Assembly (NCBI RefSeq): GCF_000341285.1
Contig: NW_005178455.1
Location: 17,274 to 81,273 of the forward strand
Direction of reading: 5' to 3'
Source of the DNA: Galdieria sulphuraria
Taxonomy: Eukaryota; Rhodophyta; Bangiophyceae; Galdieriales; Galdieriaceae
Length of the DNA stretch: 64,000 nt
Shown: piece after piece, positions 14,065-42,325 of the stretch
Layout: the number at the start of each line of letters is the position of its first letter
Numbering within the stretch: the first letter of the stretch is position 1
The notes under the pieces: model-generated
What the model was told of the DNA's origin: nothing
Database searches by the model: none
Seen by the model: the letters and a program-made list of their open reading frames with translations, nothing else
Program-made: the position numbers and the translations under genes

Positions 14065-14153
14065 TTTGTAATTTATCGCTATGAAAGCGATCTTTAAATA
14101 CGGCAGGGATACACATCCACATTTAACGTTTCTTCTCTTTGCTTGGAACTGGC

Positions 14154-16172
14154 ATGAAGTTGTTACAATCTTTTTGTTTACTCTCATTGTGCATTATTTT
14201 TTGTTTGAGCCCGCTTTTAGCAGAAGCTGCTGATTACGAGAGATTGTGCCACTGTTTCCAGCAAGATACCAGTGCTTTCGATTTATACAAGCTTGTGGGA
14301 ACGTACTCCGTAACATCATGTTCTTCGTGCAATGAAAAAAACTGTGCAGCCCTTTTTGGAGAACAAGAAAGTGACTATAATAAGCTATGTGCGTATATTG
14401 GAGAAAGTGTTGTCGATGCAGTAGAATCAGTGCTAGAAGGAGATTTCAAGTCAGCTGAAACTTATATGCAGGATTTGATCTCCAATCAAACAACCTTGAT
14501 TGAGAATTATATCGACAAGCTTTTGGGATACTTGAATAATACTTTGGACGGTTTTCGAAATGAAGTAGGAACAAACATAACTGTGATTGAACAAGAAATC
14601 AATGAGATAAATACCACTTTTATAGCACAAGATATCCAAGAGGCCGTCACTCAAATCGAAAATTATGTAAGCAAAGACATCAACGAAGCTATAACGTCAT
14701 TGGAAGTTCAAATACAAAAATATGCAGAGAAGATTGAAGTCAATATCTCAGAACAGTTGGATATTATTGAAACGGATATTGAACAAGTCAACCTTACTTT
14801 GGTATTGGATGAAATTAAGAAATATGCAGAGAAGATTGAAGTTAATATCTCAGAACAGTTGGATATTATTGAAACGGATATTGAACAAGTCAACCTTACT
14901 TTGGTATTGGATGAAATTAAGAAATATGCAGAGAAGATTGAAGTCAATATCTCAGAACAGTTGGATATTATTGAAACGGATATTGAACAAGTCAACATTA
15001 CTTTGGTATTGGATGAAATTAAGAAATATGCAGAGAAGATTGAAGTCAATATCTCAGAACAGTTGGATATTATTGAAACGGATATTGAACAAGTCAACAT
15101 TACTTTGGTATTGGATGAAATTAAGAAATATGCAGAGAAGATTGAAGTCAATATCTCAGAACAGTTGGATATTATTGAAACGGATATTGAACAAGTCAAC
15201 ATTACTTTGGTATTGGATGAGATTAAGAAATATGCAGAGAAGATTGAAGTTAATATCTCAGAACAGTTGGATATTATTGAAACGGATATTGAACAAGTCA
15301 ACCTTACTTTGGTATTGGATGAAATTAAGAAATATGCAGAGAAGATTGAAGTTAATATCTCAGAACAGTTGGATATTATTGAAACGGATATTGAACAAGT
15401 CAACCTTACTTTGGTATTGGATGAAATTAAGAAATATGCAGAGAAGATTGAAGTCAATATCTCAGAACAGTTGGATATTATTGAAACGGATATTGAACAA
15501 GTCAACATTACTTTGGTATTGGATGAAATTAAGAAGTATGCAGAGAAGATTGAAGTTAATGTTACCTCGGATATTGATCAAGCTATAAACACTTTAAAGG
15601 AGTTTGTTGACAGTGTTTCTGTTGATGTTGAGGCAAACATTTCTCTGGATATCAATAAAGCTGTCAAGACGTTGCAGGATAAAGTTGAAGATATCGAAAT
15701 TAACATCACCAAACAGCTTAAATTTATCGGAGACGATATTGAAAACCTGAATGAAACTATTGTGTCGGAGATGTTGAGCTTTGTTGAAAATCTATCCGTA
15801 AATATCTCGATTGATACGAATGAGACTGTGACATCCATTAACAAGACGGTGACGAAGATATTTGAGGAGCTCGAACGCAATCTTAGCTTAGATTTTTACG
15901 ACATTGTTAGTAACGTTAACATTTCTTTGGAGGATTTGGATGATGAAATTTTGAAACTTATCGAGGATATCGCTTCTGAGGTGAAAGAAATTTCTGAGAA
16001 AAATATAACGGTGAAGGTGGAGGATGTCTTGAAGGAGATGCTCAACATTAATCTTAATATTAGTTTGGAGCAACCGACACCTCCAAGAAGGCCAGTTTGT
16101 AACGCATGCCAGCAGCCACCCTGCCCTTACTCCCCATCTTGTCAAATGTACCAACAGCAAGTCGGTTGGTAA
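14154..16172 (+). CDS. Secreted sequon-rich coiled-coil repeat protein
   Basis: An intronless ORF encodes 672 residues from the ATG at 14,154. I chose this ATG because a signal peptide (MKLLQSFCLLSLCIIFCLSP) follows at once; the 15 bases upstream lack an ATG. A Cys-rich segment (residues ~25-75) comes next. Then come acidic, helical, heptad-like sequence and eight full 34-residue repeats plus a partial ninth. Each repeat starts KYAEKIEVNISEQ and carries two N-glycosylation sequons (NIS and NLT/NIT) 16-18 residues apart. More sequons continue in the diverged C-terminal helical part. The tail is Cys/Pro-rich (PPRRPVCNACQQPPCPY). It looks like an extended, heavily glycosylated secreted or cell-wall rod. 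No known family is recognised and the role is inference. It is the first solid gene after the gene-poor left arm. Confidence 0.85.
   Translation: MKLLQSFCLLSLCIIFCLSPLLAEAADYERLCHCFQQDTSAFDLYKLVGTYSVTSCSSCNEKNCAALFGEQESDYNKLCAYIGESVVDAVESVLEGDFKSAETYMQDLISNQTTLIENYIDKLLGYLNNTLDGFRNEVGTNITVIEQEINEINTTFIAQDIQEAVTQIENYVSKDINEAITSLEVQIQKYAEKIEVNISEQLDIIETDIEQVNLTLVLDEIKKYAEKIEVNISEQLDIIETDIEQVNLTLVLDEIKKYAEKIEVNISEQLDIIETDIEQVNITLVLDEIKKYAEKIEVNISEQLDIIETDIEQVNITLVLDEIKKYAEKIEVNISEQLDIIETDIEQVNITLVLDEIKKYAEKIEVNISEQLDIIETDIEQVNLTLVLDEIKKYAEKIEVNISEQLDIIETDIEQVNLTLVLDEIKKYAEKIEVNISEQLDIIETDIEQVNITLVLDEIKKYAEKIEVNVTSDIDQAINTLKEFVDSVSVDVEANISLDINKAVKTLQDKVEDIEINITKQLKFIGDDIENLNETIVSEMLSFVENLSVNISIDTNETVTSINKTVTKIFEELERNLSLDFYDIVSNVNISLEDLDDEILKLIEDIASEVKEISEKNITVKVEDVLKEMLNINLNISLEQPTPPRRPVCNACQQPPCPYSPSCQMYQQQVGW
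14718..15560 (+). repeat. Tandem 102-bp coding repeats (8 full copies plus a partial one)
   Basis: Eight direct copies of a 102-bp unit occupy 14,718-15,533, with a truncated ninth to about 15,560. Copies are almost identical in DNA, differing at a few third positions and one Leu/Ile codon: GTC or GTT before AAT, and CTT or ATT in the second sequon. The unit is a multiple of three, so the array keeps the reading frame. It also leaves a second plus-strand frame (14,722-15,588) and a minus-strand frame (15,508-14,708) open by periodicity alone. Confidence 0.97.
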
Positions 16173-17671: not shown

Positions 17672-19945
17672 ATGGAAGGCAGTAGCATTTTACAGCAGAA
17701 AGCAGGAAGAATATTACAAAAGTACTCTCTTTTGGAGAGAGAAAAACTAGGACAGCAGCTAGAGAAGATTGAGCAACAGTGAGTTTACGTGTTCATAACG
17801 TAGAAACTCACTGATCTCTTCAAGTCTTGACTTTGAAAATGTGTCTCAGGGAGGAAGAGGCTCCAACTTGCAAGTCCCTGGCGGTGCTAGTTTGGTGAAG
17901 AACACCAAAAGAGCTATAGATGAGATGGAACCAGTTATCATAGAACTTAACCACCTGAAACAGAAAGTAGTCAATTTGAACTGAGTAACTTTGAAGAAAT
18001 ATTTATACAGCCTTCTTAGGTAGAATGCATTTCGGAAAGTTGCACCAGTCTTGAGAGAGCACTAATGGGTAAAGAGAGAGATAATAGAGATTTCTTTAAA
18101 AGTGTGGTACAAGTGAAGACTATTATTTCCGAAAAGGAGAAGAAAAAGAAGGTTTGATGGCTTTTCTCGATAGTTTAGCTCTTTTGTGAATGTTTCGAGC
18201 AGATTCTTGAGAGAGTGAATAATTTATTTTTCTTAAAGGCAGACGAAGAAGATGCTTTGGAAGGTCCAGTTACAGTTGAGTTTTTTATTGCTGTTCAGAA
18301 ACTCCACACTGCAGCCTCAAGGTCGTCGAAACTGGTCAGAGACTCAAACAGTCCCCTTGGACTTGAATTGTTAGAGGTATCCATTTTTTAAGCGTTTCAT
18401 TTTTAGAGGAATAATGTTTTTATAGTATTACTCAAATAGAAAGGGTTTGGTTTTAGAAAAGTGTTATAGCTTTATTCGAATACGGTTCGAAAGTTTACAA
18501 GACTTTGAAGTAAGCAACGAAGAACTTACTTTACTTCAGAAAGCTTTTTCTTTTCTGCGTGAACAACCAGCTTTGCTTGACTCGTGTCTTCAGGTACTTT
18601 TGTCATAGTCACAAGGTGTAGAGATCTAATAATATCTAGGAAGTGGCGAATGTTCTACGTGGCAAAACTTTAGAGAACTTTGTGGAAGCGCTGACAAAGG
18701 ACGGACTAAGCAGCGACTCAATACAAGATGTTCAGAGGTATACAAATGACATGCTTGCCTTTATACATCATGCTTTTGCGTCACAGTATGAGCTTCTATC
18801 TACGATTTTGGGGTGTGTTCCTTCAACATTACCGTCGTCTAACAATGAGCATGATACACAATTAGCAGATAGAGGAGATTCATCATTCGAATCGTCAAGT
18901 CATTTTAGCAATAATGATGAATTGCAAAGAAAAATTCTCTCAGTCGTCTCGGAGGGACTTTGTCTTCCTTTTCATCGTCGTTTTGAGAAGGCGTTTAGCT
19001 CAAGGATGACTGTAATTGTTTTATTTAAGTTGTCAAATTTGTTAGAATTTTATAGCCAGCTATTTGAGAATTTCATCGGCAAAGATGGTGCTTTTGTCAG
19101 GACATTACTAGAATGCAGTGCACAGTCAATGACTTATTTCTTTCAGGTTTGGAAGGTAGGTTCTTATTGAAATGCGTTTTTGCAATTCCTAAAAGAGACA
19201 GGAAAAATTTGACGTTGTATTGGAGAACTTACCTGCAGTTGATGAAGAGTTGAGTCCACCGTCATTTGTTTATCAGTGTACAAGTCGTTTGTCAGATATA
19301 ATGGATACACTTGATATGAGTCTCCTTTCAGATGAGAGAAAGGAAGGCCACGCGGAAAGCATCCTTTCTTTTGTTATTGAGCATCTGAAGAACTTTTGCT
19401 TTCGATTGAGCCAACAGTTGGACAGTTTGAATTCGAAAGTTTTCATCATCAATTGCTTAGAAAGTGTACGAGTCCCTCTAACAAAGTATAGATTTGCGGC
19501 AACTAAAGTTGAATCCATTACGAGAGAGATTGATCACCATTTAGATCTCTATGTGGAAGATGTTACAAAAGCCTCTCTTGAACAAAGTGGCTTATTAGAG
19601 AAAATATTACGTCTTGAGTCACTATCATTGAAAGAATCAACAGTTTATATCGCGAGTGTTCCAGGCATGGACGCTGAATCTATTGCAATTGCCCTGAAGA
19701 ACTTTTACATGTCGATTCTTTCTGGGCTTGAAATTGAAAAACTATTGAATCCATCATCTTCAGGCAAGCTATCAAGCACCAGGATGCGCTCCCGAGTGAA
19801 GATTGCAATTTCAGAGTCACTTATTTCTGCATATGATTCTTTGTTCGCATTAGTGAATGATCCAAGCAATGGATATGAGGAAGATATTACGAGGAGAATG
19901 GGTGTCGTCGATACGAGTTATGTAAGAATGGCACTCACTACATAA
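17672..19945 (+). CDS. COG6: Conserved oligomeric Golgi complex subunit 6
   Basis: COG6 belongs to lobe B of the COG tethering complex, which steers retrograde vesicles within the Golgi. The reading starts at the ATG at 17,672 (MEGSSILQQKAGRILQKY) and runs through several exons with ~50-70 nt introns, ending at TAA 19,943-19,945. The N-terminal part is coiled-coil. The central exon carries the family's conserved stretch YTNDMLAFIHHAFASQYELL, followed by a long alpha-helical C-terminal half. Large exons at 18,643-19,160 and 19,220-19,945 are open and continuous. Assignment rests on the central motif and the overall helical layout; exact exon borders near 17,780-18,600 are predictions. Confidence 0.8.
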
Positions 19946-28323: not shown

Positions 28324-29934
28324 TCAATTATCTATTTGGTGAACACAGCTATCGAATTGAACAGGATAAAATATCAAGAAAACTAAAAGTCCCAAATATC
28401 CGAGTCCGATAACTACTGTTGCTATAATTCCAAAAATGCTTGCTACGGATAATGATGACAGAGCGGATTGTAAAGTACGATTCCCTTGAGCTCCGGCGAT
28501 GAGATATACATTTGCTACTGCTATTCCAAGACCAATAATCCACATAACTACGGAAACCCATTTAGGATTCCTAAAAGATCCCATACAACGTTCTGATTGT
28601 GTGAATTTTAACAAAGGAAAGATAAGAAAAGGAATTACACCAGAAAGAATTGAGGAACCAATAAGTAGAGCTAATCCAGACCCGTTATTTCCTGCAAAGA
28701 TTGCAACAATCAAACCCGGGATTATAGTAATGGTTCTTGTCATGAGGTTTCGTAACCAGAGTGGAATTTTAATGTTAAGGAAGCCCTCCATCACAATCTG
28801 GCCAGCATAGGTTGCAGAGACTGTGGCACTTTGAGCAGAAGCTAATAACGAAATACCAAATAAAATACACCCAACACCAGTTTGTGCGTAGACCGTCTTA
28901 ATTAAGTTACACGTGTCAATGAGGCTTATATTTTGTGGTTTTATCTGGATCAACGGGTTCTTATAAAATCCAACCGCAGCAAGGGATATCAAAGCCAAAT
29001 TGACTACAAAAGCTAGTACCATCGGAAAAATGAACTCTACCACATTGTACACGTACGCAGAGTGTAGTGCCGATTTCGTCAACTCAACGCGCCTCGTTTG
29101 TACTAAGGACGACTGCAAGAAAACATTATGTGGACTCACAGAGGCTCCAATTTGGGAAAGTGCTACTAGAGCAGAACCACTTGGAAGTGAGGGAATGACC
29201 CATCCCCTCATTAAGGCAGTGCCATTCGTATCTACCATAGACCATTGAATAAAGAAAGTCACTGACATCACCAAAATCATAACCATCACAAACAATTCCA
29301 AATAATGGATATTTAGATATTGAAGAGAAAGTATTAACAAAGTAGTTGCAAACGAAAGGAGAACGCCAGCGTATAGTGGCATTTGGAACAAAATTTCACA
29401 AGAAACAGCAAATCCAATGACTTGCAGTAAATCAGTAGCCATCATTGCAGCTTCCGATAATATCCATAAAATGTAACGAATGTAACGTGGATAGTTCCGT
29501 CGACAAGCTTGAGCAAGATCCATCTTGGCATAGAGGCCCAGACGAATGGTCAAAATTTGAATAAATACTTCTACCACACTTGACCACCATATTATCCATA
29601 TCAGCTTATATTCAAAACCAGCTCCTGCTTGGATGTCTCCTTCATAATTTCCAGGATCTATGAGGGCAATGCATATTAGCCAGCCTGGACCTGCGAACTT
29701 TGTTAATCCTCTCAACCAGTTGTAAATACATCGCCACCAGGAACGGATCTTTCTCAGTGCACCAGGAGTTGAATGGATATGCCCACTAACGACCACTTCC
29801 TTATCTGACAAGACTCCATCTAGCTGCATAGATAAATCATTCTTTTCAGAAGCAGAACTTTGGGATAATTTATTATCTGTTACTTCGTTTGTTGTTGTTA
29901 CTTCACTTGCTGTTATTTCGCCCGATTCAGCCAT
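28324..29934 (-). CDS. NRAMP-family metal transporter with altered metal motif
   Basis: NRAMP proteins import divalent metals with protons. A single-exon ORF of 536 residues from the ATG at 29,934 has a long polar N-terminus (~75 residues) and about 11 membrane helices. The TM1 motif is intact (ALIDPGNYEGDIQAG). The TM6 motif, usually an A-x-x-M-P-H-N form with a Met that binds soft metals, reads ASVSPHNVFLQSSLVQTR: the Met is Ser and the following His of LHSxLV is Gln. In known NRAMP relatives without this Met (plant aluminium transporter Nrat1 and bacterial Mg-type members), selectivity shifts toward hard ions. The substrate here is therefore open. Fold and family are firm. Confidence 0.9.
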   Translation of the reverse strand: MAESGEITASEVTTTNEVTDNKLSQSSASEKNDLSMQLDGVLSDKEVVVSGHIHSTPGALRKIRSWWRCIYNWLRGLTKFAGPGWLICIALIDPGNYEGDIQAGAGFEYKLIWIIWWSSVVEVFIQILTIRLGLYAKMDLAQACRRNYPRYIRYILWILSEAAMMATDLLQVIGFAVSCEILFQMPLYAGVLLSFATTLLILSLQYLNIHYLELFVMVMILVMSVTFFIQWSMVDTNGTALMRGWVIPSLPSGSALVALSQIGASVSPHNVFLQSSLVQTRRVELTKSALHSAYVYNVVEFIFPMVLAFVVNLALISLAAVGFYKNPLIQIKPQNISLIDTCNLIKTVYAQTGVGCILFGISLLASAQSATVSATYAGQIVMEGFLNIKIPLWLRNLMTRTITIIPGLIVAIFAGNNGSGLALLIGSSILSGVIPFLIFPLLKFTQSERCMGSFRNPKWVSVVMWIIGLGIAVANVYLIAGAQGNRTLQSALSSLSVASIFGIIATVVIGLGYLGLLVFLIFYPVQFDSCVHQIDN

Positions 29935-30117
29935 AGTAGCTAAAAGCAAAATACAAACTATCGTCTTTTCAACCTCGGGATTCCGAATCTAAGTTGGACA
30001 TGCACGCGTCCTATTCCGATGGACACGAGCGTGACATACTCTTCGACGTGAACAAACAAATCACCAAAACTATTCTGGAACTTTTATTGAGTACAATAAA
30101 AGGAAACTAGCCACAGT

Positions 30118-33448: not shown

Positions 33449-33895
33449 AACAGTTATACCCTACACGCAAATTTAAACATCGAACTGTCAAATATTTCAT
33501 TAACAAAAATTTTTCTAGAGGGGAATTAGCTAGTTGTAGACGTTGTGACTGCCAACTATCTTTCGTGTAACTTTGACAAGCAGACTAGGGAAAATGGAAT
33601 TTGTGAAAGTACGGAATGATAATTTTAGTCTGAAGCTTAAATTGTTCCAATCCAATCAAACAGTTATTTTATGAAACATTGCAGTCAAAGGTCTTTCCTG
33701 GAAAATCTCCTTGAAACACGTGAGAATTGAACAAGCAGTTGGAGGATGTGTTCTGGTCTCTCACAATAAAGCGTTTCTCCGCATGTAATATACCTTCCTC
33801 ATGATGATATGTTTTTAGGCTTCGGAATAGCCACAGTAACTCTGCACCAAAATAAAGCAATTTTCCATTACAATTGTAAGCGCTTTGGCGATTTC
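33449..33895. other. Divergent promoter region
   Basis: This ~450-bp spacer lies between the divergent starts of the transporter and the FtsH-type protease. An in-frame upstream ATG at 33,809 would add 29 residues to the protease, but the ATG at 33,896 gives a better mitochondrial presequence. No other gene is visible. Confidence 0.45.
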
Positions 33896-36442
33896 ATGAA
33901 AAGTTTGTTGGGAAATGTGGTGCTAAGAGTGTCGAGACTTTCACAAGTTACTCCAGTGCTCCAAAGACGAGGCTTGATATGTTTGTTATCTCACAGTGCT
34001 ACTTTCAAAGAAAGTTGGTATATCGAGCCCAAATGCACTGGTCGAACTCACGGATTCATAACAGGAGCAACCAAAAATGAAAAGGGACGCCTTGGCGTCT
34101 TCGTCGGAAGTTGTTACAAGTGTTCATTCGAAAAAGTTAAACTGGGAAATTTTCGTATGCTTCAAAACTCAGTTGTTCATTCTCGTGGAGGACTACTGTC
34201 GTTAGTCCAAACGAACAAGTCAGGTTGTACAACTTCAAGCAGACAATTTTGCTCAGACGAGAATACCAAACACAACAAGTCGAAAAATGAAGATAAGGGC
34301 AGAAAGTCGGAAGCAGAAAGCACAACGGAAACTGAGAAGGATAGTGGAAGGACTGGTTTCGGAAGATTTTATCCCAAATCCAGGAAACTCAATGACAAGG
34401 AGAATAATGAACGGTCATCTTCAGCCAGTGGAGAAGAAAAGTCTAATGAGAAAGGCAGCCTAAATAATGTTCCAGGTGGAAGTCAGTATCAGTTATTTGC
34501 CCTGTTAATTGGAGCTGGATTGTTATTGTCCATGTTATCGTCAAGTAACCAGGATGGTGGAAGTCGTGCACCTGAGACAAGTTGGCAAGCCTTTCGCAGA
34601 GACATTTTGCCAACAGGAAGAGTTTCGAAAATTGTAGTTGTGAACAAAGATGTAGCACGGGTTTATGCTCGTAACGCAAATTCCAAACTTGGTGATCCGA
34701 ACGTAGAAATATGCTATTTTCGGATAGGAGATCTGGAAACTTTTGAAAATAAGCTACAAGATGCTCAAGAAGAGCTAGGCTTTAGTCCGAAGGAGATAGT
34801 TCCTGTCGTATATTCTAATGAAACTTCCTTATTAAGCACTGTCATCGCCTGGTCGCCTACTATCTTACTAATTCTTGTTTACCTATACTTTTTACGAACA
34901 GGTGGTTTCGGTCCTATGGCTGGTGGTATTGGAGGTCCAGGTTCAAGAGGCTCTTCGTCTAGTGCAAGTCGAAACATATTTGGTGTCGGAAAGGCCAACG
35001 TTACTGTCATGAACCGAGATACGAATAAAGTGAGCACAACCTTTAAAGATGTTGCTGGACTGGATGAAGCCAAGACCGAAGTGATAGAGTTTGTTTATTA
35101 CTTGAAGAATCCTGAACGTTACAAGGAAATTGGCGCCAAGATACCGAAAGGTGCACTGTTATATGGACCTCCTGGAACTGGCAAAACTCTTCTTGCAAAG
35201 GCAACTGCAGGAGAATCTGGCGTTCCTTTCTTGACTATGAGCGGCTCAGACTTTATGGAGATGTTTGTGGGTGTTGGTCCAAGTCGCGTCAGGGACCTTT
35301 TTGCACAAGCTCGCAAACTTGCTCCTTGTATAATTTTTATTGATGAAATTGATGCAATTGGTAGAGCTCGAGGTAGAGGTGGACTTATTGGCGGTAATGA
35401 TGAAAGAGAAAATACTTTAAATCAGTTGTTAGTGGAAATGGATGGATTTTCTCCAAATAGTGGTGTTGTTGTGTTCGGAGGAACTAATCGAGCAGATATT
35501 TTGGACAATGCACTGCTTCGACCCGGTAGATTTGACCGTCAAATCTTGATTGACGCTCCAGACATACGTGGCCGCCATGATATTTTCTTAGTGCATCTTC
35601 GTCCTTTGAAAGTTAGTGATCCCCCTGGAATTGAAAAGGTAGCCCAGAGATTGGCAGCATTGACACCCGGTTTTGTTGGAGCGGATATTGCCAATGTTTG
35701 TAATGAAGGTGCTTTAGTGGCTGCACGTGAAAGTGTCAATAAAATCGAGTTGCGTCATTTTGAATCCGCCATAGATCGAGTAATTGGCGGTCTTGAGAAG
35801 AGAAATATGGTTATGTCTCCGGAGGAAAAGAAGACTGTTGCTTATCATGAAGCTGGCCATGCAGTAGCTGGTTGGTTTTTTAGATACGCTTTACCATTAT
35901 TGAAGGTTTCGATTGTACCTCGAGGTTCCTCGGCCCTGGGATATTCACAATATCAACCAAGAGAACAATATTTGTATTCAAAAGAGCAACTGCTGGATAC
36001 TATTTGTATGACTTTAGGAGGGCGAGTCTCAGAAGAAATTTTCTTTCAGAGACTTACCACTGGTGCTGCAGATGATTTTCAAAAAGTGACAAAACTTGCT
36101 TATCAAGAAATAAGTGTCTGGGGAATGAATGATAATGTCGGTCATGTTTCGTTTCAGAAGAGTCCAAACGAAACTCGCTTTTATAAACCTTATAGCGACC
36201 GAACAGCAGCAAGTATTGATAGAGAAGTTCGCGAATTGTTGTCCAATGCTTATCAAAGAACGTATGCATTGCTATTGGAGAAGAAGGAAAGTATTCAGCA
36301 AGTTGCAGAGCTGCTTTTAGAAAGGGAACAAATTGGTTATGAAGACCTTGTTCGTATTTTGGGTAAGAGACCGTTTAAAGAAGTCCGTGATTATGAAGAA
36401 ATCCTTGAACAATCTAAGAAAGAAATCAGTTCTTCACATTAG
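33896..36442 (+). CDS. Mitochondrial m-AAA (FtsH/AFG3-type) protease
   Basis: This membrane AAA+ zinc protease degrades damaged inner-membrane proteins and matures mitochondrial substrates. A single-exon ORF of 848 residues starts at 33,896 with a basic presequence ([20 protein letters not shown]). Two membrane segments flank the intermembrane domain ([15 protein letters not shown] and [11 protein letters not shown]). The AAA module has Walker A GPPGTGKT, pore loop FMEMFVGVG, Walker [18 protein letters not shown] and arginine fingers RPGRFDRQI. The protease has HEAGH with the later zinc Asp in [13 protein letters not shown]. The long presequence and the AFG3-like spacing favour a mitochondrial m-AAA subunit over a plastid FtsH. 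OXA1, which inserts proteins in the same membrane, lies 1 kb away. Confidence 0.92.
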
Positions 36443-37363: not shown

Positions 37364-38605
37364 ATGATGCGGTCGTTGTTGCTTCGAGTAGTAACTAAGA
37401 GAATTAGATACACTTCTCTGTATAGAACTTTCTCAAAATGTTCTTCAGATTCCTTTGGAAGCAGAGGGGAAACCTTGAAGACTTTTAAGATTCGCCCGTA
37501 CCAGTCATATACTTCCAACGCAAGGGGCAAAGGTTTGTCTCAGATTTGTTCGTTGAGTACTTCATCTTCTGCACATCCTTCACCGAAATCAGGTCAAGTT
37601 AATACAGTTTCTGAACCCGTTGCGTCAAACTTCCACTTGGAGAATGCTTCAGACAACTTGGGTTCTTTGGATTCACTTCCTAACCAGGCTTTAGAAGAGA
37701 TAGAGTCCAACTGGTTTGATCCAATGGTTTATCTGATACATAGGCTTCACGAGGCGACGGGTTGGCCGTGGTTTGCTTTACTGGCTGGAATGACTTGGTC
37801 TATTCGCTTAATGATGCTTCCTCTGACTTTGGGATCGTTGCGAACTTCTGCCTTACTGAACTCGTTACAACCACAGTTGAAAGATATTCAAGATAAGATT
37901 TCACGTGCTAAAGAAAGAGGCAACTCCGAGAAGGTGGAAGAATATAATAAGAAATATATGGAAATTCTGAGAGTGAACAAGGCCAATCCTATGAAAGCAC
38001 TCTTTGCGCCACTTGCACAGACTCCCGTTTTTATTGCCTTTTTCTTCAGTTTGAGAAAATTGTCACAGATTGAGCCCACCTTCTCCAGCGGTGGAACTTT
38101 GTGGTTTACAGATCTTAGTGCGCCAGATCCATATTATATTCTTCCAGTAGCTTGTAGTAGTATTTTGTTAACGACTCTTCAGTTTGGAGGAGAAACAGCG
38201 TCGACTGCTACCAGTAGAACAGCATTCAATATGATGCGTTTGATGGCTCTCAGTATTATACCCTTTACTTATCAAATGCCGAGTGCTTTGTTTTGTTATT
38301 GGGTACCTAACAATTTATTTTCATTGGCTCAAACTTTATTATTCAAAGTTCCAACAGTACGAAAGGTTCTTAAATTGCCCGACAAGAGGAAAAAAGGAGA
38401 CTCTACAAAGGATAGTCATGCGAAACAAGATGAACAGACAACATTTGATCATTTATATTCTCAAGCAGGTTCGAAAGCTGAACGAGAGGCATTGGCAGCA
38501 TTGTCTTATAATTCAGCAAGAGAAGGAACGAATCCTATTCTTGTCGCTGCAAAACAAGGAATGAAGCCTCGACTCTTAGAAAAGAAAACTCGAGTACCGA
38601 GATGA
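37364..38605 (+). CDS. OXA1: OXA1-type mitochondrial membrane insertase
   Basis: OXA1/YidC/Alb3 proteins insert subunits into the mitochondrial inner membrane. A single-exon ORF of 413 residues starts with tandem ATGs (MMRSLLLRVVTKRIRYTSLY), a basic presequence. The insertase core has five hydrophobic segments: WFALLAGMTWSIRLMMLPLT, a basic hairpin loop (KDIQDKISRAKERGNSEKVEE), PLAQTPVFIAFFFSLRKL, and later YILPVACSSILL and LFCYWVPNNLFSLAQTLLF. The C-terminal tail is hydrophilic and basic (KLPDKRKKGDS...KTRVPR), fitting a ribosome-binding Oxa1 tail. The presequence favours mitochondria over the plastid Alb3 form. Confidence 0.88.
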   Translation: MMRSLLLRVVTKRIRYTSLYRTFSKCSSDSFGSRGETLKTFKIRPYQSYTSNARGKGLSQICSLSTSSSAHPSPKSGQVNTVSEPVASNFHLENASDNLGSLDSLPNQALEEIESNWFDPMVYLIHRLHEATGWPWFALLAGMTWSIRLMMLPLTLGSLRTSALLNSLQPQLKDIQDKISRAKERGNSEKVEEYNKKYMEILRVNKANPMKALFAPLAQTPVFIAFFFSLRKLSQIEPTFSSGGTLWFTDLSAPDPYYILPVACSSILLTTLQFGGETASTATSRTAFNMMRLMALSIIPFTYQMPSALFCYWVPNNLFSLAQTLLFKVPTVRKVLKLPDKRKKGDSTKDSHAKQDEQTTFDHLYSQAGSKAEREALAALSYNSAREGTNPILVAAKQGMKPRLLEKKTRVPR

Positions 38606-38858: not shown

Positions 38859-40597
38859 TTAATAATAATTAGATAGAGAAGTCTTTTTCTTCTTCTTCTT
38901 TTCATATAATGAAGACAAAAAGGTGGGTACGCCATCTGGCACAGTAACTGCATTGTGGTTCAATATTGCCTTGTCTCTCGACTGCCGTCTTTCCTCCTTT
39001 TCTTTTGCAAGGCGTTCTTGTAACTCAAGACGACGTTGATCGATAACATTATGTTGCTTCCTTCTTAACTTTGCTGCCAATTTATTCCTACCTCGTTTCC
39101 TCTTCTTCGGACGATCCTTGGGAGTATTTGCATTTCTCTCCAAATGCTTCAGCTCCATTAGACGACTCTGAGGATCCTGTTCTACTGTTCCTATCATTTG
39201 AGGATTCAAAGTGATTGTTGCTGGAGGAAGTTTCTCCAGAAGAAGTCGAACTTCTTTTTCTCTTCTTTGACGTTTCGTTTCGTATGGATGACTTTCAAAA
39301 GTATCAAAATTCGGTTCTCCTGCACCCGGAACAACCATAGATGAGAAACCTGTGGCATGTCCAACTCCTAAAACATCTTCAAAAGGACAGAAGCCTAAAG
39401 AATGAACCTCATTTCCACCTATCAACTCTTTCATATATGGTTTCGGTGTTGTTTCGTCTTTTTCGCTTAAATAATCTTTCCAAATCCATACTTGTGAATT
39501 CATACCAAGTGCAAGTAGTCCACGTTGGCTAACATTCATTTCGGTGGCTACACAAGGCAAAGACCACTGTTTCATTAAACGAAAGGTACGCAAGTCCCAA
39601 ATCTTCACTTTCTTATCGCTTCCAGTTGTGATCATATTCTGTCCCTTTGGATCGAAACCAATACAAGTAACTGGTCCTCTATGTGCGGATATCTTAACCA
39701 ATGGGTTCGAAGTCACTGGAGTCCAGAATGAAATTACACCGTTCTTGTGTCCCAAATGAATGATTCCGTTTTGCATATTCTGTGCCAATACTTTAGTCTT
39801 ACCCATCTTAGTATCCAACTTGGATACGATTGTTCCCAAAGAGGTATCGGTATATATTAAGTTACCATTCTCTAGAGAGCTCACCAATAGCAAATGATAT
39901 GGTAAAAAGGTTAATGCTGTTGGATAACGATGTTCTCTGAGACAATGAAGTTCTATTCCTTGAGCGTCATAAATAAAAGTATATTTTCGCTGAGCAAGTG
40001 CAAAATATTGATCAGTATGTAAGAAGGTAAGGTCACGAATTGTTTCTGATAAATAAAGCTCCGTTTGTAGTTTAGCTTCTCTCCAAAACGTTAAACCAAC
40101 GTGTCCCTTTTTGCCAGCCAACAAAAGAGACCGACTGGAACGAGAGTATGTTACTTTATAAGGACCCAAAATGTCCAAATTCAAGTCAAATATTTTTCTT
40201 TTCGTCTGATCGTCAACCAAACCTTTCAACTTGGCTTGTGTTAGAGAATAAGTCTTCTCCAGCTCATTTTCTGGTTCCAAAAAGCCTTCGTTCTCTGGAA
40301 GCAACACTTCCGCCGCTACTGCCTTTTCAAGAGCTTCTTTTTCAAAGTTGTGGGACTGTTGAAGCAGTCTTTTACTTCTCGAACTGCCTTTCTATATAAA
40401 CAGAAAGCGTCAAATGCAGCTCATCAAGAACAAGTTTTCAATACTCAAGTTACCTTTCCAGTTAGTCTTTCCTGACTTGTTCGTTGATATTTGCCCACTA
40501 TCTTTTTATGCCTTTCTTCCAAATGTTTTTGTTCTTTTGAGTTCTCTCTTTCACCCTTAATAAACTCCTCGGTGTGAATGGAGCCATCGTCAACCAT
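38859..40597 (-). CDS. UTP7: U3 snoRNP / SSU processome WD40 protein UTP7 (WDR46)
   Basis: UTP7 is part of the small-subunit processome that processes pre-18S rRNA in the nucleolus. Two exons: 40,597 to about 40,455 (MVDDGSIHTEEFIKGE...) and about 40,393 to 38,859 after a 60-nt intron; together ~530 residues. The N-terminus is charged. WD40 blades follow: AGKKGHVGLTFWR, HRGPVTCIGFDPKGQNM, TTGSDKKVKIWDLRTF and LALGMNSQVWIWKDYL. The family's BING4 C-terminal block is recognisable by its position after the propeller (GFCPFEDVLGVGHATGFSSM, VPGAGEPNFDTFESHPYE). The end is a basic, KKRKRGRNKLAAKLRRK-type nucleolar tail. A C/D snoRNA candidate lies 250-330 bp upstream on the same strand. Confidence 0.9.
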
Positions 40598-40844
40598 AGT
40601 CAATGGATGAATGTTTTCTCAAATCAGACTTTATAAGTTTAGGAACCATTTCAAAAAATAGGTGTTTTAACCACAAAAGCAAAGACTATTATCTACCTAA
40701 TAAGATGCTCGTTCATTTAAGGAAGAGCTTCAAATACAAACTAGAATGTTAATGAACCGACGCTCGACGTCTTCTTCAGAGTAACCTTTCTATTTAGACA
40801 AGAATCTTAAGTTCATATCAAACAAAATATCGGTTGGAACAAAT

Positions 40845-40922
40845 GGCTCAGTTGGTGGTGCATGTTTCGCATGCATTCTTCACAAGTCCTCAGTCGAACG
40901 AGACCGCGAAATCATCATAGCC
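40845..40922 (-). ncRNA. C/D-box snoRNA, predicted dual guide for 18S rRNA
   Basis: On the minus strand box C (ATGATGA, 40,918-40,912) and box D (CTGA, 40,851-40,848) are enclosed by GGC and GCC flanks that can pair as the terminal stem. An internal D' box (CTGA) is at 40,893-40,890. The bases before D' (GGTCTCGTTCG) are complementary to the conserved 18S stretch CGAACGAGACC. The bases before D (CATGCACCACC) are complementary to 18S GGTGGTGCATG. By the five-base rule the targets are the A of CGAACG and the U of GGUGGUGC, matching the human Am1383 (U30) and Um1326 (U33) positions as I recall them. A 5' splice-site consensus (GTAAGG) lies 28 nt upstream, so it may sit in an intron, perhaps of the UTP7 5' leader. 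Confidence 0.8.
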
Positions 40923-41271
40923 GATTCAGCAACAACATAAATAGTCCTTACCTTGTTTTCATTCGTCGTTATGACTTTACAAGTTGACAACTCAAGATAA
41001 CTTGGCGTCCTCTCCCGTGAGGAAGCGATGTCGGAGCGACACTTTGCCGAAAGAATTTGTCAATCATTTATATATTACTCTTTGGAAACTCTCATCTTGT
41101 GTGAAATAATTTTCTTCTTATATCAAAAGATATGCTCAACATGATGCTTTCACTATTCCATCCTTTCCTGAATGATACAAATAACAACAATAATAACAAA
41201 TCATCCAATGCAAATACAACTGAAAATTACAAAGTCCTTCCAAAATACCACGTTTCCTAAGCAACAAAGAA
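40923..41271. other. Intergenic with possible host exon
   Basis: This stretch lies between the snoRNA candidate and the MED7 stop. It holds the GTAAGG splice donor at 40,951 and two short perfect hairpins (TGTCG-GAG-CGACA near 41,030 and CCTC-loop-GAGG near 41,010). It may contain the first, noncoding exon of the snoRNA host transcript. No protein frame is convincing. Confidence 0.35.
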
Positions 41272-42325
41272 CTACACGTCACTCTTCTCTTCATTCAAAA
41301 TGGACTCTATGGTTTCTCTCATATCCCAATATCTTTCAGAAGAGACACGATCTTCCTTGCAAGTTTCCTTTGGTATATCGTGGGACAAAAAACTGTCCCA
41401 GAATATAATGACTATATCAAGAAAACAAAAGAAACTCACCTGTTAAAACTTTCCTTCCAGTCAAAAGTGGACGATAAGTCTTGTGTATCAGTCTTTAGCG
41501 ACAACAAGACATCGTGACGGCCCTTCCTCAACTTTTCTGCCAAATCTTCTTTCTTCGATACTTGAGAGTTGAAAAGCCTATACGTCTTTAGTATTATCAA
41601 AAAAGAATTCTTGAAGCAAAAAATACTTGTACAATCTCCATTTTGCTTGTTCCAATCGCAGTATGTTCAACAAGTGATAGATATTGACAAACTGTTCTTC
41701 AATGAGTCTCAACTTGAAAGTGTGAAAACTAAAAAAATTCTTAAAATAACTTCTCACCTCCTCTTCTATGGTAGACCAGTCAGGTTTCGAGGTGGTCAAG
41801 TTATCTAAAATGTTCATATAACGCTTCAAGCAGCAAAGAATAAGACGTTTGATGGCTCCAGTCTTTCTGTTCGAAAGTTGAATCACGTCAACTCAAAATA
41901 AAACAAACCCACTTTTCAGTTACTTTGAAAAGAATGGAGTGACCCTGTGACTCTAACGACGCTAAAAGCTCTTTTCCCATCTTTTCAAAATTTTAACACA
42001 AATATTGCTACTAGTGACCAAGGCAGACCTACTTTTCTTGGAACACCGAATATAACAAATTCCGAATCTTTATCAGGAGGCCTTGGAGGATCTACAAGCT
42101 CAGAGACTAGGAATCAACAACGTATAAGAGCTTTCCTAACCTTGAACATACGAACTATCTCGGAAAGGTTCGTACAATCTAGTCAAACATGAAGTTTTGT
42201 ATTGACAGATTATCCTGAAAACTTACTCTTTGGGAGGAAAGGGAAACTGTGGAACCGCCTTCCTCGTTTCCGAACTCATCCACCACAGCTATTAATATCA
42301 CTAATGCAAAAGACTTTTCTCTCAT
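41272..42325 (-). CDS. MED7: Mediator complex subunit 7
   Basis: MED7 sits in the middle module of Mediator and helps RNA polymerase II initiation. The reading runs on the minus strand through six or seven small exons with ~35-60 nt introns. The family's proline motif appears as VDPPRPPDKDSEFVIFG. Next comes the helical core KRLILCCLKRYMNILDNL and the signature RLIEEQFVNIYHLLNILRLE-QAKWRLL, matching the MED7 pattern [27 protein letters not shown]. A hydrophilic C-terminus ends at TAG 41,272-41,274. The N-terminal start at 42,325 (MREKSFALVILIAVVDEFG) and the junction near 41,890-41,950 are uncertain. It diverges from hydroxypyruvate reductase with only ~47 bp between starts. Confidence 0.6.

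Follow-up and report, generated by a model that had tools for sequence, protein, structure and literature searches.

A predicted two-guide box C/D snoRNA upstream of UTP7 in Galdieria sulphuraria

The Locus and Its Surroundings

The window analyzed here, a stretch of 64,000 nucleotides with a GC content of about 38%, carries on its minus strand a predicted box C/D snoRNA of about 78–80 nt (40845–40924), located upstream of a UTP7 gene on the same strand (38859–40597). The ATG of this gene was placed by eye at 40597, and a short intron lies at about 40453–40392. Its main exon matched Utp7 chains in PDB entry 5wlc (E 4.8e-129), which we take to be from yeast, and WD repeat-containing protein 46 in entry 7mq8 (E 1.4e-107), presumably from human, and a BING4CT domain was found in the product. 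The identification of UTP7 from these matches is solid, and it bears out the preliminary description of the locus, in which UTP7 was the next same-strand coding gene downstream of the snoRNA. On the other side, the upstream neighbor gene seems, by eye, to end near 41272.

Elsewhere in the window, inspection by eye pointed to what are presumably an FtsH-type AAA protease (33809–36442), an Oxa1-type insertase (37364–38605) and an NRAMP-type transporter (28324–29949). A 677-aa open frame on the plus strand (14139–16172) contains many near-identical repeats (KKYAEKIEVNISEQLDIIETDIEQVN...) that look coiled-coil-like by eye; these repeats also hold long open frames in other frames.

Architecture of the Predicted snoRNA

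Direct reading of the minus strand gave a complete C/D set, with the boxes in the order C, D′, C′ and D within a GGC/GCC terminal stem. From the 5′ end, the stem arm GGC plus T (GGCT, 40919–40922) is followed by an exact box C (ATGATGA, 40912–40918, consensus RTGATGA), an 11-nt D′ guide (GGTCTCGTTCG, 40895–40905), an exact box D′ (CTGA, 40890–40893), a box C′ with one mismatch to RTGATGA (GTGAAGA, 40877–40883), a 12-nt D guide (CATGCACCACCA, 40853–40864), an exact box D (CTGA, 40848–40851) and the 3′ arm of the stem (GCC, 40845–40847), which pairs with the GGC of the 5′ arm. A box C (RTGATGA) and a box D (CTGA) joined by a terminal stem, as expected of a C/D snoRNA, are found here, and each guide sits one base from its box and has a length of at least 10 nt (12 and 11 nt). 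The boxes C, D′ and D and the GGC/GCC stem had already been recognized in the preliminary description and are all present; box C′ is an addition to it, and of the two 11-base guides that it proposed, the D′ guide indeed has 11 nt but the D guide has 12. Taken together, these features very probably correspond to a two-guide box C/D snoRNA of the ordinary guide type, encoded on the minus strand at 40845–40924 of a eukaryote with a compact genome.

It should be noted that the spacer TGCATG (40875–40870) can form a 6-bp hairpin of −6.3 kcal/mol with CATGCA (40864–40859), the first half of the D guide. Six base pairs were reached by 77 of 20,000 shuffles of a 14-base spacer, made of 12 real bases and two of the C′ box. 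Such a hairpin could hide half of the guide and compete with rRNA pairing, and to that extent it counts against the snoRNA reading.

Targets of the Two Guides on 18S rRNA

The guides were compared with seven eukaryotic 18S loci from public contigs (L001–L007), all called eukaryotic SSU by Rfam, which represent the rRNA of other eukaryotes and not that of the host. Two of them (L001, 3632–4543, and L002, 4059–4305) are eukaryotic 18S sequences on IMG/VR “viral” contigs, perhaps chimeras. The other five (L003–L007) are on contigs filed as bacterial genomes, and therefore probably reflect contamination of those records. Target positions were numbered on L005, a yeast-like 18S of 1800 nt.

The 12 nt of the D guide are perfectly antisense to conserved 18S sequence, with U1269 of L005 at position +5, and the 11 nt of the D′ guide likewise, with A1326 at position +5; the two targets are thus 57 nt apart. 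Computed energies of the guide–18S duplexes were −23.8 kcal/mol for the D guide and −21.1 kcal/mol for the D′ guide. The 12-mer at the uridine site was intact in all seven loci, although the independent count is five out of five, because the pattern used to fetch L001 and L002 contains 11 of the 12 target bases. At the adenosine site, the 9-base core was intact in six of the seven loci and the full 11 bases in three; the match to the D′ guide accordingly ran to 11 nt in three loci and to 9–10 nt in three others, and the target was absent in L002, whose sequence diverges from that of the other loci at this point (possibly an insertion or a chimera). Complementarity to conserved 18S segments and a spacing of about 60 nt had been announced previously; both hold in substance, but the measured spacing is 57 nt and the conservation of the D′ site is incomplete.

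Both +5 nucleotides correspond to positions listed as methylated in published tables. U1269 of L005 is the equivalent of human Um1326 and Arabidopsis U1273, and A1326 that of human Am1383 and Arabidopsis A1330. In these sources, the uridine appears as yeast Um1269 (guided by snR55), human Um1326 (U33), Arabidopsis Um1270 (SnoR34) and Dictyostelium Um1264 (CD29) (PMC8817022), the yeast position being numbered Um1267 elsewhere (PMC3511168). The adenosine is listed as Arabidopsis Am1327 (SnoR32) and human Am1383 (PMC3511168), whose equivalence we derived from their common position 57 nt downstream of the uridine; in the numbering of a later Arabidopsis RiboMeth-seq table (U1273 and A1330), the two sites are likewise 57 nt apart. 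The sources disagree on human position 1383, with regard to both the guide and the nucleotide letter: one names “snR53” as the guide of Am1383 (PMC3511168), and the other assigns SNORD30 to 28S A3804 and to 18S “C1383” (PMC6466398).

One might suppose that only the U33-type uridine guide is functional, the D′ match being decorative or aimed elsewhere. In line with this, the yeast and Dictyostelium tables consulted list the uridine methylation with no adenosine counterpart, and the D′ match is shortened to 9–10 nt in three of the seven loci and lost in one. Against this stand the 11-nt length of the D′ guide, its exact CTGA box, the right nucleotide at +5, and the listing of the adenosine equivalent as methylated in the human and Arabidopsis tables, so that we consider a uridine-only RNA unlikely. 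As for a D′ guide aimed mainly at the LSU, neither guide pairs over more than 8 nt with the LSU sequences compared, which were partial fragments that may not reach the equivalent of 28S A3804, and this possibility was not favored.

Relation to Family Models

When 221 bases around the candidate were submitted to Rfam, SNORD33 (RF00133) was the best of the 16 matches listed, aligned end to end over 40842–40925 with 24.8 bits (E 0.02), below its cut-off of 44; snoU30 (RF01283) reached 16.9 bits for a cut-off of 45. A search of the whole window returned no family at its cut-off and nothing up to E 2. Guiding at the equivalent of U1326, as by SNORD33, is predicted here from complementarity, through the +5 position of the D guide (U1269 of L005). 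Judged from its sequence, the candidate is a snoRNA predicted to work like the U33 type with an added D′ guide of the SnoR32/U30 type, and it falls outside both Rfam families by their own thresholds.

The preliminary description had joined U33-like and U30-like specificities by the +5 rule. The nucleotides are indeed those assigned to human U33 (U1326) and U30 (1383), but the label “U30-like” was overstated, considering the low snoU30 score, the additional 28S target of U30 (A3804) and the assignment of the equivalent adenosine to SnoR32 in Arabidopsis.

Controls Against Chance

A strict scan, with rules chosen after the candidate had been seen, asked for exact C, D′ and D boxes, three Watson–Crick stem pairs and guides at most 1 nt from their boxes, with four 18S targets. 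It returned a single structure in the window, bearing both guides, against an average of 0.33 strict structures per dinucleotide shuffle. Among 3000 such shuffles, none bore two guides of 9 nt or more, and five did so at 8+8 nt. Under lax rules, which allowed one mismatch in the C box and in D′, G–T stem pairs, guides up to 3 nt from their boxes and SSU, LSU and 5.8S targets, the window held ten candidates at 8+8 nt (shuffle mean 6.5) and a single one at both 9+9 and 10+10 nt, which is the snoRNA described here; 110 of 200 shuffles reached 9+9 nt, and 11 of 200 reached 10+10 nt. Because lax rules are often satisfied by shuffled sequence, significance depends jointly on the exactness of the boxes, the length of the guides and the fact that the target sites are known ones. 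A further control on the exact pattern (none in 100 shuffles) was set up after the fact and says little. A scan of the window for further C/D candidates with rRNA guides gave, apart from this snoRNA, only a single-guide one with 10 nt of complementarity on the plus strand (17895–17984), which was rejected, the shuffles yielding on average 3.07 such structures and the window two.

These controls bear on the explanation that boxes and rRNA-like words came together by chance, or that the element is the dead copy of a snoRNA. The 10+10 matches in lax shuffles and the strict criteria fixed afterwards speak in its favor; however, no strict shuffle reached even 9+9 nt, the C, D′ and D boxes are exact, and both +5 positions are equivalents of known methylation sites, so that chance is unlikely and this explanation as a whole appears highly improbable.

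Paired guides were also searched for as an exact pattern in three scans of IMG/VR and GTDB genome contigs, with no match, which is weak evidence because these collections are not eukaryotic.

The UTP7 Leader and the Candidate Intron

The preliminary description had invoked a GTAAGG donor upstream of the snoRNA as a sign of intronic origin. This motif is present on the minus strand (40951–40946) and, together with an acceptor at 40790, brackets the snoRNA within a candidate intron of 162 nt (GTAAGG...AAATAG, 40790–40951). Splice sites were scored with a rough model built on 17 short, uncurated introns of the window (45–74 nt by design, median 55 nt), a set that replaced an earlier survey of 24 clusters with many long, unlikely pairs. 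Between 41274 and 40597, the donor at 40951 had the best score (5.5) and the acceptor at 40790 the second-best (6.32), in a near tie of three (6.34 and 6.31 for the others). This donor is moderate, being surpassed by 16 of the 17 training donors and equaled or exceeded by 161 of the 3777 minus-strand GTs in the window, and the candidate intron exceeds in length every one of the 17 training introns, which were limited to 45–74 nt. An intronic origin is thus only plausible. On balance, excision of the snoRNA from an intron in the UTP7 5′ leader appears somewhat more probable than other origins, and its co-transcription with UTP7 is plausible.

A real snoRNA could also be expressed as an independent transcription unit, or from a short non-coding host transcript upstream of UTP7. 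This alternative, which we regard as less probable though a serious contender, would be in accordance with a TATATAAA stretch near 41070 and with upstream ATGs in the leader between 40789 and 40598, both noted by eye, as well as with the modest rank of the donor; by contrast, the bracketing of the snoRNA by the top donor and the second-best acceptor of the region argues for the leader intron.

Removal of the intron 40951–40790 would leave an ATG just before the donor that opens a 19-codon frame (MKTRKV..., 40962–40741, minus strand). By eye, this frame stops at a TAG (40743–40741) and may be a short upstream ORF of UTP7.

Proposed Function and Implications

From a mechanistic point of view, fibrillarin and the other usual core proteins would bind to the C/D and C′/D′ motifs. 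2′-O-methylation would then be directed by the D guide to the 18S uridine that corresponds to human U1326 and yeast U1269, and by the D′ guide to the adenosine that corresponds to human A1383, 57 nt downstream. The snoRNA itself would, somewhat more probably than not, be released from the leader intron upstream of UTP7. We infer expression, protein binding, methylation and intronic processing alike from the genomic sequence. The complete scheme, in which one snoRNA combines two 18S specificities assigned to separate RNAs in the human and Arabidopsis tables, can span two sites 57 nt apart on one pre-18S molecule and comes from the UTP7 leader intron, is rather doubtful as a whole.

If this scheme were true, a guide and a ribosome assembly factor would have one promoter in common. 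With the candidate, the red algae, a lineage for which our literature searches listed little snoRNA work, would also gain a snoRNA aimed at two conserved sites of 18S rRNA, and its pairing of guides suggests a reshuffling of such pairs from one lineage to another. The occurrence of an A1383-type guide beyond the human and Arabidopsis tables would moreover be informative about how old that methylation is. The principle of C/D snoRNA action would be unchanged.

Comparison With Known snoRNAs

The 18S uridine target is common to the candidate and, in the literature, to SNORD33/U33, yeast snR55, Arabidopsis SnoR34 and U33, Neurospora CD34 and Dictyostelium CD29, and the SNORD33 consensus CAUGCACUACCAUCUGA is nearly identical to the D-box guide. 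The second sites differ: Arabidopsis U33 and SnoR34 are listed there with 25S sites (G3292 and G2918, respectively), whereas the D′ guide of the candidate points to an 18S site 57 nt away, and Neurospora CD34 has one listed target where the candidate has two. Arabidopsis SnoR32 resembles the candidate in being assigned to the equivalent of human A1383 and in having another listed 18S site in the vicinity; in that table, however, which pools gene variants, this second target is U1266 and not U1273. SNORD30/U30 has 18S position 1383 in common with the candidate, and is listed for 28S A3804 as well; the snoU30 consensus contains the same UCUCGUU core, but lacks the U33-type D guide.

Paired targets were looked for in published work (PMC8053127, PMC6461891, PMC8817022, PMC3511168, PMC6466398, PMC5122169, PMC2780460, PMC2656528, PMC5880011), among which one (PMC5122169) includes one red alga, C. 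merolae, in its trees. The equivalents of U1326 and A1383 were absent as a pair on one RNA from the tables for human, yeast, Arabidopsis and Dictyostelium consulted in these main texts. Pairs of close targets are nevertheless familiar: six Arabidopsis snoRNAs are named with two sites 11–18 nt apart in one study (PMC8053127), and with such precedents for neighboring rRNA targets on a single snoRNA the surprise is small. Each guiding job of the candidate is thus known from other organisms, and what looks unusual is only their pairing on one RNA, beside a ribosome-assembly gene.
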